From Fimbriiglobus ruber (GTDB lineage: Bacteria; Planctomycetota; Planctomycetia; Gemmatales; Gemmataceae): a DNA stretch of 64,000 nt. Position 1 is the stretch's first letter; every line of letters begins with the position of its first letter. Of this stretch, positions 59,433 through 64,000 are shown one piece after another. The stretch lies in contig NZ_NIDE01000004.1 in the NCBI RefSeq assembly GCF_002197845.1, forward strand, positions 310,001 to 374,000, read 5' to 3'. The translations under genes and the position numbers were made by a program. The notes under the pieces were generated by a model, which ran no database searches, had not been told where the DNA came from, and saw only the letters and a program-made list of their open reading frames with translations.

Positions 59433-59732
59433 ATGCTCGAAAATGCGAACGACACCGTGTCGCTGAGTACGTTCAAGCGAGACACGTCGAAGGTGGCCGA
59501 GCAGCTGAGAAAGACCGGCCGTCCCGTCGTCCTTACTGTGAACGGTAAAGCCGAAATGGTCGTGCAGGACGCAGCCGCCTATCAGCGGCTGGTAACGCTG
59601 GCAGAACAAGCGGAGATGTACTCATTCCTTCGCGCGGGCAAAGTCGAAGTGGATGCCGGTCGGACACTTCCCGCACTCGAAGCCCTGGACGCGATCGCAA
59701 AGAAGCACAAGCTCACCGGAAAGAAGACGTGA
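59433..59732 (+). CDS. Phd/YefM-type antitoxin-like protein, orphan
   Basis: Short protein of 99 residues. The N-terminus DTVSLSTFKRDTSKVAEQLRKTGRPVVLTVNGKAEMVVQDAAAYQRLV is the Phd/YefM antitoxin DNA-binding domain; the C-terminal half would bind a toxin. A gaggtgg site lies 6 nt before the ATG. A RelE/ParE-type toxin normally follows directly, but here only a short gap and a 160-bp palindrome follow. It may be an orphan regulator or the survivor of a disrupted pair. Confidence 0.82.
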   Translation: MLENANDTVSLSTFKRDTSKVAEQLRKTGRPVVLTVNGKAEMVVQDAAAYQRLVTLAEQAEMYSFLRAGKVEVDAGRTLPALEALDAIAKKHKLTGKKT

Positions 59733-59793: not shown

Positions 59794-59953
59794 CGGCGCT
59801 CGGCGCGGGTCTCCGACCCCGCCGTTCGGCCCGACCGCAGGTCTCCCGTCCCTCGGCACGTGCCCATCCGGTCGGTGTCTCGTGCGTCGCGCGTCGGACG
59901 GGAGACCTGCGGTCGGGCCGAACGGCGGGGTCGGAGACCCGCGCCGAGCGCCG
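59794..59953. repeat. Palindrome with 58-bp perfect arms (cgcgggtctccgaccccgcc type)
   Basis: Arms 59794-59851 and 59896-59953 are exact reverse complements over 58 bp, with a 44-base loop. It sits in the gap between the orphan antitoxin and nikR, where a toxin gene would be expected. Largest palindrome in the window. No coding content. Confidence 0.9.
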
Positions 59954-59973: not shown

Positions 59974-60438
59974 TCAGTGTGGATGCGGGTGATCGTGCGG
60001 ATGCGGATGGGCGTGGCCGTTCGCGGTCTCGTCCGTCGCGCGGACGACGACCAGTTGCGCGTGGTGGATGCCTTTCAACCCGCTGAGGTCGGCGGCCAGA
60101 CGTTGGAGGTCCAGGGCCGGGCCGCGGAGGGCGATCACCTCCATGCACAGGTCGTGGTCGAGGTGAACGTGCATCGTCGCCACCACCCGCTCCCCGTGTG
60201 CGTGCTGGATGTCCAACATCTTGTCGGTGAGCCGCGTCTTGTGGTGGTCGTAGACCAGCGTCAGGCTGGCCGCCACGTCCGCCGCGTCCGCCGCCCACGC
60301 GGTCGTCGTTAACTTTTCCCGTAGCAGTTGGCGGATCGCTTCACTCCGGGTCGCGAACCGCCCCTGCTCGCAAAACTGGTCGAACGATTCGAGCAAGTCG
60401 GCTTCGAGCGACACCGAGAACCGGACTAATTCCGACAT
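59974..60438 (-). CDS. nikR: Nickel-responsive transcriptional regulator NikR
   Basis: Ribbon-helix-helix nickel sensor of 154 residues. The RHH domain (residues 4-42: VRFSVSLEADLLESFDQFCE, TRSEAIRQLLREKL) is followed by the ACT-like metal domain. All four Ni ligands are conserved with E. coli spacing: His79, His90, His92, Cys98 (QHAHG, MHVHLDHDLC). The C-terminal tail HAHPHPHDHPHPH is a His-rich extension that E. coli NikR lacks. Start is the Met before SELVRFS; upstream residues lack support. Confidence 0.93.
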   Translation of the reverse strand: MSELVRFSVSLEADLLESFDQFCEQGRFATRSEAIRQLLREKLTTTAWAADAADVAASLTLVYDHHKTRLTDKMLDIQHAHGERVVATMHVHLDHDLCMEVIALRGPALDLQRLAADLSGLKGIHHAQLVVVRATDETANGHAHPHPHDHPHPH

Positions 60439-60549
60439 CGTAGTTTCCCCCGCGGCACACCGTACACCGACACGCCGGAACACATCCACCCAGCCTTTTC
60501 CGTTCCCCGTCGAGAAAGGCCGACAAAAGGATTGACCTTCCGACTCGCA

Positions 60550-60576
60550 GTGTTACTATTTTCAAAACCGTAACAA
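60550..60576. promoter_or_regulatory. Putative NikR operator (GTGTTAC-N13-GTAACA)
   Basis: GTGTTAC at 60550-60556 and GTAACAA at 60570-60576 are inverted half-sites with 13 bases between. It lies in the divergent region between nikR and the pseudopilin gene, 111 bp from the nikR start and 30 bp from the GTG of the pseudopilin gene. The half-site GTGTTAC with N13/14 is, from memory, one described for a Geobacter NikR, distinct from the E. coli GTATGA-N16-TCATAC. Binding is inferred. Confidence 0.6.
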
Positions 60577-60606: not shown

Positions 60607-61500
60607 GTGACGAGACACCCCCGCCGGTCCGCGTTCACTCTCGTGGAGTTGCTGGTCGTCATCGCCATCATCGCGGTTCTGATCGGCCTCCTGCTGCCGG
60701 CGGTTCAGAAAGTCCGCAGTGCGGCCCGAAAGACGCAGTGCCAAAACAACATGCGGCAGATCGGGCTCGCCACCTTGCAATACTACGACGCGACTCAGGG
60801 TGCGTTCTTTCTGCACCACCCGTTCGACGCCGACGTGCTGGCAAACCTGGCCGACGCCAACTCGTTCGCCGAGATCTACTGGGAAGACAAAATCCTGCCC
60901 TTCATCGGGGCGAACTGGGAAGCAAACACGACGCTGACGAACGCCGGCCAGAACAACCCGACCGAAGTCATCTACCGATGCCCGGACGACAATTCCGTCC
61001 GGCAGGCGTTTCTCAACGCGGGCGTGATCGACGGGTGGGCCAACCGGACCAGCTACCTCTTGAACTCTCAGCTCAGCCACAAGACCCGCCGGTGGGGCCG
61101 GTGGAATCAGGCCAGCCTCACGGACAACGTTGGGTCGTCCAACTTTATCGCGTACTGCGAACGGAACGCGGCCGCGATTCTGGCCGACACGGTTCTTGCG
61201 GGCGACCCCCGGCAGGACGATTACGACATCTGGCTGGGCGTCACCTACTTCCAGCCGTGGATCGCGACCACGCGGCACGGCGGCTACCCGAATTACCTGT
61301 TCCTGGACGGGCACGTCGCGCCGTATCAGTGGCTGCCACTCGACGGGACGAGCCCGGCCGGGATTTTCATGTTCCCGGACTTCTACCGATTCCCCAGCAC
61401 CACCACCACGGTCGGGTACGTCATCTCTCCGATCCGGATCACGACGCAAGGGTTCTACTCGACCGAGACCTCGAACGACGACCCGTGGGGCGGGAACTAG
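60607..61500 (+). CDS. DUF1559 type IV pseudopilin-like protein
   Basis: Planctomycete pseudopilin of 297 residues starting at GTG. The prepilin signal is classic: [27 protein letters not shown], with Phe at +1 and Glu at +5 of the mature protein. The rest is the DUF1559 domain ([46 protein letters not shown] close to the C-terminus). DUF1559 proteins are secreted by a type II/IV pilus-like machine and are numerous in planctomycetes. A putative NikR operator lies just before it. Confidence 0.95.
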
Positions 61501-61542: not shown

Positions 61543-62007
61543 GTGAAGACTCTCCACCGGATCTGGCTCTTGGCCCTGTTCGCGGCTGCCGCAGGCTGCG
61601 AAAAGTCGCCCCCGCCTCCGCCCGAGAAGATTGCAACGGGTGCGGAAAAGGTTGCCCATGTCTTTTTCGAAGCCCTGATGCACGAAGACTGGACCGCCGC
61701 TTACGACACCCTCGACCCGGACAGCCGGGCGTGGTGCGGCAAAGACCAGTTCACGACCAAGGCCAAGGCGTACCTGGGCCAGATCGGGTTTACCCCGACA
61801 GAAGTCGGGGTCGCGGCGAGTGAGACCGCGGACTCGGCCTCCGCCGTCGCCGTCTTCCGCGGCGTGTCGGGGACCAGCCCGAAGCAGCACAAGGACGGCA
61901 CCGCGCTGCACCGGACGCCGACCGGGTGGGCGGTGGTTCTGCGAAAGAACTTCGGTGTCGAATCCGCTACCCCGCCGCCCGCGCCGTCGAAAGGCGGCAA
62001 GGGTTAA
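61543..62007 (+). CDS. Small lipoprotein of unknown function (NTF2/DUF-like)
   Basis: Lipoprotein of 154 residues starting at GTG. The signal ends at the lipobox AAAAGC (Cys19), then KSPPPPPEK linker. The mature region EKVAHVFFEALMHEDWTAAYDTLDPDSRAWCGKDQFTTKAKAY looks like a cystatin/NTF2-like domain. Ends Pro/Lys-rich (ATPPPAPSKGGKG). 42 nt after the pseudopilin stop, same strand, so likely co-expressed. Function unknown. Confidence 0.78.
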   Translation: MKTLHRIWLLALFAAAAGCEKSPPPPPEKIATGAEKVAHVFFEALMHEDWTAAYDTLDPDSRAWCGKDQFTTKAKAYLGQIGFTPTEVGVAASETADSASAVAVFRGVSGTSPKQHKDGTALHRTPTGWAVVLRKNFGVESATPPPAPSKGGKG

Positions 62008-62043: not shown

Positions 62044-64000
62044 GTGGCACCAGCACCCATAGCCCGATTCCCGGCCCGCTCTCCGGCCGGTGGCGTAAAC
62101 GATCCCGCCGGCCCGGACGCGCTGCGCGCCCGCGCGGAAACGGCCACCGCTGCCGGGCGGTGGGACGACGCGATCGCCGATTGCACGACCGCTGTCGAAG
62201 CCGATTTCAACTTACTGGTTGTAGTCTCGGCACGCATTCTGGCGGTCGCCACACGGGGCGATGCGACCGCCAGCCGGGTGGCTGCGCGTCAGATCGACGC
62301 GCTTCAAACGAGCCTCACCCAATCGTACCTGTTGCGCGGCACGACGCACGCGCGGGCCGGCCGCGACGACCGCGCGTGCGCCGACTTCACCCACGTCCTC
62401 CGCCTCGTCCCCGACCACGCCGGCGCCCTTGTCGCCCGCGGCGACGCCTACCGACGACAGGAACAGTACGATCTGGCGAAGGCGGACTACGTCGCGGCCA
62501 CCCGGCACGAACCGACCCTCGCGGTTGCCCGGTGCGGGTTGGGCGAAGTCGCACTTCATCTCGGCGACTTCGCGGCCGCCGTTACCGACTTCACGACCGC
62601 GATTCGCCTCGACCCGGAACCCGCGGCACCATACCTCGGCCGCGGCCGGGCTGTACTCGAACTCGGCGACCTGCCCGCCGCGCGAGCCGACTTCGACCGG
62701 GCACTCGCCCGCGCCCCCGAATCCGCCACCGCCCACTATTACCGCGGCCTCTGCCTGGCCCGTGCGAACGACTCCGCGGCAGCCCTCGAAGACTTCGGGC
62801 GAGCGCTGGAACTCGATGCGACTCTCGCGCCCGCTTACCTCGCCCGCGGCGAAACCCACCGTACCGTCGGCGCGCTCGAAACCGCCCTGGCGGATCTCGA
62901 CGAATACCTGCGCCGCGACCCGGCTTCGGTCGCCGGCCTGACAATGCGTGGGGAAATTCACCAGGACCGGTGCAACCACGACTGCGCCGTGGCCGATTTC
63001 GACGCGGCACTTGGCTATGCCCCCGACGGAGGCGATCTGTACGTCCGCCGGGCACGGGCGCTGTGCTTGAAGGCGGGCCAGACCGCCGCCGCGGACTCGC
63101 TCGCCGAAGCGCTGCGCTTGTACCCCAAGGCGTCCGCGCGCGGCTCCGCTGCCCAAGAACCGATAGGAATTCTCGCGCTCGCCGGCGAAACCGCCCCATC
63201 TCCGGGCGCGGTCGCATTCGAGCGGGGACTGGCATACCAGCAAGACGGCGACGCCGACCGCGCGCTGGCGGCTTACGACGACGCGATTCTCCTCGATCCG
63301 GATTACGCGGCCGCGTACCGGGAACGGGGGCAATTGCACCGGCAGGCGGGCCGGGGCCGGCAGGCGCTCGACGATTTCTCGACCGCCATCCGCCTCGCCC
63401 CGGACGAGCCCGAAACGTACTTACGCCGCGGGAGTACGTACCTCGCGGTCGGGCAACTCGACCGCGCGACCGCCGACTTCGACGCGGCCTTGCGACTCGA
63501 TCCCGATTTGGCCGCGGCTTACGCGAACCGCGGACTCGTCCGCGTGAAGCAGGGTGACCCACACGCCGCGGCGGCCGACGCGACCGCGGCCCTCCGGCTC
63601 GACCCCGCCCTGACCCGCGCGTACTTCGTCCGCGGGGCCGCCCGCGCGGCCCTCGGCCGGCACGCCGACGCGGTCGACGACTTCGATCATCTACTCGAAC
63701 TCGATCCGGCCGACGCCCTCGCGTACAACGAGCGCGGGGTGGTACTCGCGGACATGGGCGAGTACGAGCGGGCCGTTGCCGACTACGACCGGGCGATCGA
63801 ACTCAAACCGGCGTTCGTTCTGGCACGCTTCAACCGGGCGGTCGCCCTCCGCGCGAGCGGGAACCCCGGTGCCGCGGCGGCCGACCTCGACGAGGTGATC
63901 CGCCGCCAGCCACAATCCGCCCACGCGTACTACCACCGCGGTCTCGCCGCGTTCGACCTTGGTGATCACCCCCGGGCCGCGGCAGATTTAATCCGCGCGA
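62044..64000 (+). CDS. TPR repeat protein, runs off the window
   Basis: The open frame starts at GTG 62044 and has no stop up to the window end, giving at least 652 residues. It holds about 14 or more tetratricopeptide repeats (34-residue helix pairs), for example AYRERGQLHRQAGRGRQALDDFSTAIRLAPDE, AYANRGLVRVKQGDPHAAAADATAALRLDPAL (parts shown as short motifs: RGxxxxxxGxxxxAxxDFxxAIxLDP). The first 85 residues are not TPR-like. No catalytic domain is seen so far. TPR scaffolds of this size are common in planctomycetes; function unknown. Confidence 0.85.
   Translation, partial: MAPAPIARFPARSPAGGVNDPAGPDALRARAETATAAGRWDDAIADCTTAVEADFNLLVVVSARILAVATRGDATASRVAARQIDALQTSLTQSYLLRGTTHARAGRDDRACADFTHVLRLVPDHAGALVARGDAYRRQEQYDLAKADYVAATRHEPTLAVARCGLGEVALHLGDFAAAVTDFTTAIRLDPEPAAPYLGRGRAVLELGDLPAARADFDRALARAPESATAHYYRGLCLARANDSAAALEDFGRALELDATLAPAYLARGETHRTVGALETALADLDEYLRRDPASVAGLTMRGEIHQDRCNHDCAVADFDAALGYAPDGGDLYVRRARALCLKAGQTAAADSLAEALRLYPKASARGSAAQEPIGILALAGETAPSPGAVAFERGLAYQQDGDADRALAAYDDAILLDPDYAAAYRERGQLHRQAGRGRQALDDFSTAIRLAPDEPETYLRRGSTYLAVGQLDRATADFDAALRLDPDLAAAYANRGLVRVKQGDPHAAAADATAALRLDPALTRAYFVRGAARAALGRHADAVDDFDHLLELDPADALAYNERGVVLADMGEYERAVADYDRAIELKPAFVLARFNRAVALRASGNPGAAAADLDEVIRRQPQSAHAYYHRGLAAFDLGDHPRAAADLIRA

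Follow-up and report, generated by a model that had tools for sequence, protein, structure and literature searches.

A palindrome between nikR and a divergently oriented pseudopilin gene of Fimbriiglobus ruber is, judging from its sequence and setting, very probably a binding site for NikR. More specifically, we consider it probable that the palindrome is an operator of the Geobacter/Desulfovibrio type, at which nickel-loaded NikR represses an operon encoding a lipoprotein and a DUF1559 pseudopilin of the subfamily referred to here as LHHP, with the operon being expressed in nickel shortage. The support computed from the stretch of DNA analyzed here (64,000 nt, hereafter the window) and from related genomes comprises the site itself, its overlap with a promoter, its match to a published consensus, another occurrence of the site at nikQO, and its retention alongside the pseudopilin where the genome carries NikR but not where NikR is missing; binding by NikR and the repressing sign of its effect are what we infer from these observations. 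In the mechanism that we propose, Ni-loaded NikR would occupy the operator when nickel is sufficient, covering the pseudopilin promoter at its -10 region and start; this would repress the LHHP pseudopilin–lipoprotein operon. In nickel shortage that operon would be expressed, as would nikQO, which lies at another place in the genome. The features concerned are listed in Table 1.

Table 1. Window features surrounding the predicted operator
Feature	Position	Strand	Basis or remark
nikR (154 aa; RHH and NikR_C domains; His-rich tail)	59974..60438	-	ATG at 60438; profile matches
Sigma-70-like promoter TTGACC-N16-TACTAT, into DUF1559 gene	60532..60559	+	1 found vs 0.1 expected (shuffles)
Predicted NikR-type operator GTGTTAC-N13-GTAACAA	60550..60576	+	13/14 consensus bases
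DUF1559 pseudopilin, LHHP subfamily (297 aa), likely regulated gene	60607..61500	+	GTG start at 60607; profile matches
Small lipoprotein-like gene, no Pfam family, probably same operon as pseudopilin	61543..62007	+	Recurrence in relatives
TPR-repeat gene	62050..64000, runs past window (967 aa in longer stretch)	+	Downstream

A NikR-type palindrome in the nikR–pseudopilin gap

Direct reading of the window gives the palindrome as GTGTTACTATTTTCAAAACCGTAACAA (60550-60576, plus strand), within the 168-bp gap that separates the start of nikR (60438, minus strand) from that of the DUF1559 gene (60607, plus strand). The original prediction of a 7-mer and its near-perfect inverse, spaced by 13 bases in this divergent gap, thus holds at exactly the position given. 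The palindrome lies 30 bp from the pseudopilin start and 111 bp from the nikR start, and departs from GTGTTAC-N13-GTAACAC in its last base alone. The exact string GTGTTAC-N13-GTAACA occurs once in the whole window; allowing at most 2 mismatches yields 3 matches, compared with 0.37 expected from shuffles, and 2 of the 3 are the two strands of the palindrome itself.

Across the genome of this organism (12.36 Mb), for which the window base composition would predict approximately 0.013 exact and 0.64 one-mismatch sites, an N13 scan returned one perfect site and a single site with 1 mismatch, the latter being the palindrome at 60550-60576. The perfect site is separated by 11 bp from the downstream ATG of a gene for a CbiQ/NikQ-type permease, and an ABC ATPase gene comes next (nikQO). 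A genome search with GTGTTAC-N(13,14)-GTAACAC, proposed along with the original prediction, gave one perfect N13 match, at nickel transport genes, which favors that prediction. Counting against it, the CbiM/NikM-like gene and the urease cluster of the same genome are both present, and both are without an operator site. At up to 3 mismatches the N13 scan returned 201 sites against 196 for a reversed-pattern control, which is chance level; the two best N13 sites are thus the sole ones to rise above background in this genome. The N14 form gave nothing below 2 mismatches, and 8 sites against 6 in the control at 2 mismatches. Two-mismatch N13 sites define 13 loci in all (L004-L016), and no nickel gene was recognized beside the 5 of 13 inspected (L004, L006, L011, L012 and L015).

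The adjacent regulator and the class of its predicted operator

The gene identified as nikR on first reading is indeed nikR, and its product does carry the His-rich tail ascribed to it. The protein scores 150.1 bits against the NCBIfam equivalog NF003381 (cut-off 105), 35.4 bits against Pfam RHH_1 (cut-off 20.5), and 96.4 bits against NikR_C (cut-off 22), and its homologues in the Protein Data Bank include solved NikR structures. Against the TIGR02793 nikR equivalog it reaches 98.5 bits, under the cut-off of 175.45; to judge from these scores, the protein belongs to the wider NikR family and falls outside this narrower model. The Ni(II) ligands of E. coli NikR are H76, H87, H89, and C95 (H-X10-H-X-H-X5-C), and the same spacing is present in the window protein as H79-X10-H90-X-H92-X5-C98, invariant in a 5-protein alignment. 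The His-rich tail reads GHAHPHPHDHPHPH, and similar tails occur on other Gemmataceae NikRs.

The suggestion that the operator belongs to a class other than the enterobacterial one is borne out by its match to a delta-proteobacterial consensus. Rodionov and colleagues gave the NikR signal of delta-proteobacteria as GTGTTAC-[N13/14]-GTAACAC, before nikMNQO-type operons (PMC545781), and the sites described here resemble that Geobacter/Desulfovibrio operator in their half-sites (GTGTTAC/GTAACAC), their 13-14 spacing, and their occurrence before nik(MN)QO. Besides nickel transporters, one Fe hydrogenase and one unnamed cluster make up the delta-proteobacterial targets described there (PMC545781); planctomycetes differ in having the pseudopilin–lipoprotein operon as an added predicted target, and GTATTAC variants are common among them. 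The E. coli NikR operator, given as GTATGA-N16-TCATAC in the account of PMC7055735, is also a dyad of similar overall length placed in a promoter, but its half-site is different. The enterobacterial operator is rejected for planctomycete nikR on the loci covered: matches to its consensus before nikR numbered 0 of 55 in Gemmataceae and 0 of 30 in a phylum-wide sample at up to 2 mismatches, and 2 of 55 and 1 of 30, respectively, at 3 mismatches. A parallel of another kind is provided by H. pylori NikR, whose regulon as outlined in PMC7055735 includes FecA3, FrpB4, and ExbB/D; control of cell-surface nickel uptake parts is thus a shared theme, whereas a pseudopilin does not figure as a target in that outline.

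Presence of the site also varies with the beta strand of NikR. An upstream site (at most 2 mismatches) was found at 26 of 62 loci whose NikR has the strand xRFxVS and at 1 of 21 loci with other NikRs, a comparison that leaves out L090, L113, and L032 (no recognized motif); this pattern is consistent with the DNA-reading beta strand setting the operator class. The segment RFSVSL of this strand is common to the window NikR and H. pylori NikR, the operators of the latter being poorly conserved. Binding work on the NikR of Geobacter uraniireducens reportedly exists. We also observed a second class of Gemmataceae NikR, with a beta strand that is mostly TR[VI]SIS, for which the GTRTTAC operator was found upstream at 0 of 16 loci at up to 2 mismatches (L065, L077, L080, L081, L092, L093, L098-L100, L103, L104, L106, L108, L109, L111, and L112).

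Association of the predicted operator with the divergent gene

The palindrome stands in the upstream region of nikR, and one might suppose that it serves nikR autoregulation only, with the pseudopilin a bystander. Sites that would suit such a role exist elsewhere in the phylum: in L019 and L022, from other planctomycetes, the site starts 35 and 70 bp before nikR, respectively, and a CbiM-like gene follows (by eye). To weigh this possibility, we consider the distribution of sites before nikR across relatives. NikR was found in 55 of 95 Gemmataceae genomes, at 56 loci, of which 55 have upstream sequence (L113, with nikR cut at a contig start, was left out of the upstream counts); the phylum-wide sample comprises the 30 best-scoring loci only. 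A GTGTTAC-type site with at most 2 mismatches occurs in the 300 bp before nikR at 9 of the 55 Gemmataceae loci and 11 of the 30 best-scoring phylum-wide loci, while 60 permuted half-sites gave means of 0.12 (maximum 1) and 0, respectively.

The immediate divergent neighbor of nikR is a DUF1559 gene at 16 of the 55 Gemmataceae loci and a NikL-like gene at 2; at two others (L073 and L082), a DUF1559 gene lies farther upstream. A GTRTTAC-N13/14-GTAAYAC site (at most 3 mismatches, 300 bp before nikR) is present at 16/16 loci with a divergent DUF1559 gene and 2/2 with a divergent NikL-like gene, and at only 2 of the remaining 37 (L061 and L082; Fisher 1e-11, a value inflated by the shared ancestry considered below). 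Permuted half-sites gave means of 0.92/16 (maximum 6) and 0.85/37. Restricting the search to at most 1 mismatch left 9/16, 2/2, and 0/37. These counts lead us to conclude that in Gemmataceae the operator, as defined by sequence, follows the divergent gene rather than nikR, and that the predicted operator at 60550-60576 belongs to the pseudopilin.

Autoregulation alone is an improbable reading on these grounds, given that 35 of the 37 loci at which neither a DUF1559 nor a NikL-like gene is the immediate divergent neighbor have no site (and L082, one of the other 2, does have a DUF1559 gene farther upstream), that sites also precede LHHP genes located away from nikR, and that in the local arrangement the overlapped -10 hexamer reads toward the pseudopilin and the distance to the nikR start is 111 bp as against 30 bp to the pseudopilin start.

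Overlap of the predicted operator with the pseudopilin promoter

The -10 hexamer of the promoter (60554-60559) overlaps the left half-site of the operator and the first bases of its spacer. The arrangement recurs: among 28 homologous operators, a -35-like hexamer (at least 4/6) stands 15-19 bp ahead of the equivalent position in 17, while 300 shuffles of the flanks gave a mean of 4.1 and a maximum of 13. An operator overlapping the -10 hexamer and likely transcription start occupies the usual place of a repressor, which argues against the converse regulatory sign, under which NikR would activate the pseudopilin at high nickel, for example in nickel export or storage. The presence of nickel uptake components among the co-regulated genes argues the same way. 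Activation would find some encouragement in H. pylori, where nickel storage genes are among the many targets under NikR control, and in two Singulisphaera genomes with a 1-mismatch site before a gene for a possible exporter, an ABC-2-type transporter (by eye). We regard activation as an outside chance, and continue with repression by Ni-NikR as the preferred reading.

Co-occurrence of the predicted operator with NikR at LHHP genes

If NikR is the protein that binds, the site before LHHP genes should be expected to follow the presence of NikR. Among Gemmataceae genomes with an LHHP gene, the 200 bp before that gene contain a site (at most 3 mismatches) in 17/17 NikR-bearing and 0/5 NikR-less genomes. 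For G316 this count uses the DUF1559 gene immediately ahead of the LHHP gene and that gene's promoter, its start being guessed; the 200 bp of the LHHP gene itself have no site, and counting them instead would give 16/17. For G337 the start was set from the pilin motif, and G251 has just 88 bp upstream. Permuted motifs gave a mean of 0.55 and a maximum of 4 at up to 3 mismatches. Twelve of the 17 NikR-bearing genomes retain the site at no more than 1 mismatch, and the other 5 have 3-mismatch sites only. In six genomes (G337, G308, G271, G338, G305, and G309), the operator precedes an LHHP gene without an adjacent nikR.

A scan of GTDB genomes extended the comparison to 49 named LHHP loci, among them those of Singulisphaera acidiphila, Aquisphaera insulae, Zavarzinella formosa, Limnoglobus roseus, and Schlesneria MAGs, with NikR found in 26 of the 49 genomes (drafts, completeness not given). 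At up to 3, 2, and 1 mismatches, the site is present at 25, 18, and 14 of the 26 NikR-bearing loci and at 1, 0, and 0 of the 23 NikR-less loci (starts approximate for L231, L233, and L240), compared with permuted-motif means over the 49 loci of 1.35, 0.13, and 0.02. The exceptions are L224, which has NikR and a site with 4 mismatches, and L235, which lacks NikR and shows a match with 3 mismatches, located 162 bp upstream. The two sets overlap (by 5 NikR-less and 14 NikR-bearing genomes, as inferred from identical sites and coordinates) and their counts are not independent; merged, they give 28/29 NikR-bearing against 1/23 NikR-less genomes.

Relatedness among these genomes must also be borne in mind. 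On the best gene tree, with the operator of L235 set to absent by hand because its only match lies 162 bp upstream, NikR state changes 6 times and operator state 7 times, but strongly supported branches force only 1 change. Given this shared ancestry, Fisher values overstate the significance of the association, and a test on independent contrasts is powerless.

The comparison bears on whether a different regulator with a similar palindrome might be the protein that binds. The permissive 3-mismatch sites do vary in sequence, and binding by NikR is a prediction. We nonetheless judge a different regulator to be less probable than either reading weighed above, since the site tracks the presence of NikR across genomes and matches the published NikR box as presented in PMC545781, and since the two best N13 copies in the genome stand beside nikR and at nikQO. 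The original proposal that nickel may control the DUF1559 pseudopilin thus has strong comparative support in that sites before orthologues follow NikR, while the regulation itself is predicted.

Sites at other genes of relatives

Across 95 Gemmataceae genomes, exact GTRTTAC-N13-GTAAYAC occurs at 12 sites, compared with 1 for a reversed control. Seven of the 12 lie directly before nikQO (in F. ruber), a NikL-like gene beside nikR (2), or a DUF1559 gene beside nikR (4). In G281, a DUF1559 gene lies 470 bp downstream of the exact site, with no nikR on the same contig stretch, and in G322 a DUF4198 gene lies approximately 0.7 kb downstream. The exact sites of G268 (L116) and G271 (L117) have no recognized nickel link, and the former is probably due to chance. 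The exact site of G274 (L172, about 5173) lies between a barrel-like and a TonB-like gene, by eye a possible case of NikR-controlled outer-membrane uptake.

Of eight further regions with a 1-mismatch site (L306-L313), four have a link, namely a DUF1559–DUF4198 operon (L307), a NikL-like gene (L313), and an ABC-2-type transporter (L308 and L309); no link was recognized in L306, L310, L311, and L312. The sites of L308 (about 4654) and L309 (about 4581), from two Singulisphaera genomes, precede ABC-2-like transporter operons possibly related to nickel export. In Singulisphaera acidiphila, a 1-mismatch site precedes genes for a small lipoprotein-like protein, a DUF1559 protein, and a DUF4198 protein, and a 1-mismatch site in G352 stands 11 bp before a NikL-like gene. 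We note that at L155, L158, L159, and L307, another type of DUF1559 gene stands behind a NikR-type site and is followed by a DUF4198-like gene (Pfam-tested in L307 only); there are hints here that a pseudopilin and DUF4198 form a recurrent pair. Gene calls in relatives come from a frame-composition heuristic, and the labels NikL-like, CbiM-like, TonB-like, and ABC-2 were assigned by eye or from weak Pfam matches.

When the 49 genomes were scanned in full at up to 1 mismatch, 42 sites turned up, fewer than the 62 of the reversed control, and hence no excess was seen (31 against 25 in NikR-bearing genomes, 11 against 37 in NikR-less genomes). With this result and the unlinked 1-mismatch regions, whole-genome scans alone cannot define the regulon; the case for the predicted operator rests on its position before orthologous genes. 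Genome-wide counts equal to the control at 3 mismatches are also what a chance palindrome would predict, a reading in practice refuted by conservation in relatives and by an expectation, from composition, of 7e-6 sites with up to 1 mismatch in the nikR–pseudopilin gap.

The LHHP pseudopilin and its possible role

The window pseudopilin scores above the cut-offs of Pfam N_methyl (31.4 bits) and SBP_bac_10 (39.5 bits, from a match confined to the first 62 of the 268 profile positions). Like other planctomycete DUF1559 pseudopilins, it combines an N-terminal methylation/pilin segment with a DUF1559 domain; unlike them, LHHP proteins form a separate group with one match per genome and a predicted NikR operator upstream. 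Whereas the F. ruber genome has at least 155 DUF1559 (SBP_bac_10) matches (150 of 220 candidates scored), 22 of 95 Gemmataceae genomes, this one included, each yield a single match to the window protein below 1e-30 (at most 25 candidates scored per genome), and the orthologues in other Gemmataceae are 53-75% identical to it. By sequence, then, LHHP is a distinct DUF1559 subfamily with its own motif, likely single copy per genome.

An AlphaFold2 model of the protein (pTM 0.79, mean pLDDT 79.5) has a helix at 12-62 and strands, an arrangement that may be pilin-like. Foldseek returned no match to solved structures at E <= 0.001, and the 8 rows shown by VIA-align against solved structures are type IV pilins with Z of 4.7 or less. 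In an alignment of 43 LHHP proteins (the window protein and 42 of the 49 named loci, leaving out 7 that are truncated or lack a clean reading frame), His70, His71, His158, Asp204, Asp205, His224, Cys45, and Cys125 are invariant, a set of residues that would permit metal binding.

A similar lipoprotein-like gene directly follows the LHHP gene at 10 of 22 Gemmataceae loci (by eye), and sequence clustering joined such genes at 7 of 49 loci; this gene is probably in one operon with the pseudopilin. A DUF4198 gene lies approximately 1 kb beyond the TPR-repeat gene (L174:9951-10730). Among the LHHP neighbors in the clusters shown, there was no recurrent function-naming family beyond pilin-like ORFs, some lipoprotein genes, and some nikR. 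LHHP genes persist in NikR-less planctomycetes; the role of the protein is therefore not tied to NikR itself, and a narrow nickel-only role is uncertain. We tentatively entertain the idea that the pseudopilin helps the cell to obtain or handle nickel at its surface. More doubtful is a fuller version, in which a dedicated nickel-repressed LHHP pseudopilin and lipoprotein, with a DUF4198 or NikL-like protein in some lineages, would make up a surface apparatus for nickel capture or uptake whose invariant His-His and Asp residues bind metal; if true, this would be metal acquisition built on pilin-like subunits.

The operator class is already known. Among the open-licence PMC papers listed, as judged from titles and the starts of abstracts, we found neither a NikR-controlled pseudopilin nor a paper treating DUF1559 together with nickel. 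DUF1559 is mentioned in a plasmid context in a passage of PMC5352709, and a paper that covers 3 planctomycete genomes has no transporter entered for them in its transporter table (PMC2667541). The predicted regulation would carry the delta-proteobacterial NikR box to the Planctomycetota, with predicted targets, and would link planctomycete pseudopilins to metal homeostasis. DUF1559 is a huge family whose annotation gives its function as unknown; with a conserved operator for a nickel sensor before one of its subfamilies, there would be a specific condition, nickel limitation, that switches a member on, and a first testable handle.

Two further features lie on the other side of nikR. A Phd/YefM-type antitoxin gene is found at 59433-59732, with no obvious toxin gene adjoining it in the list of open reading frames. 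Just past the 3' end of nikR, positions 59794-59953 hold a perfect 58-nt inverted repeat with a 44-nt center, and the core pair of this repeat recurs on another contig of the genome (L047 14915-15050), which suggests a dispersed repeat element.
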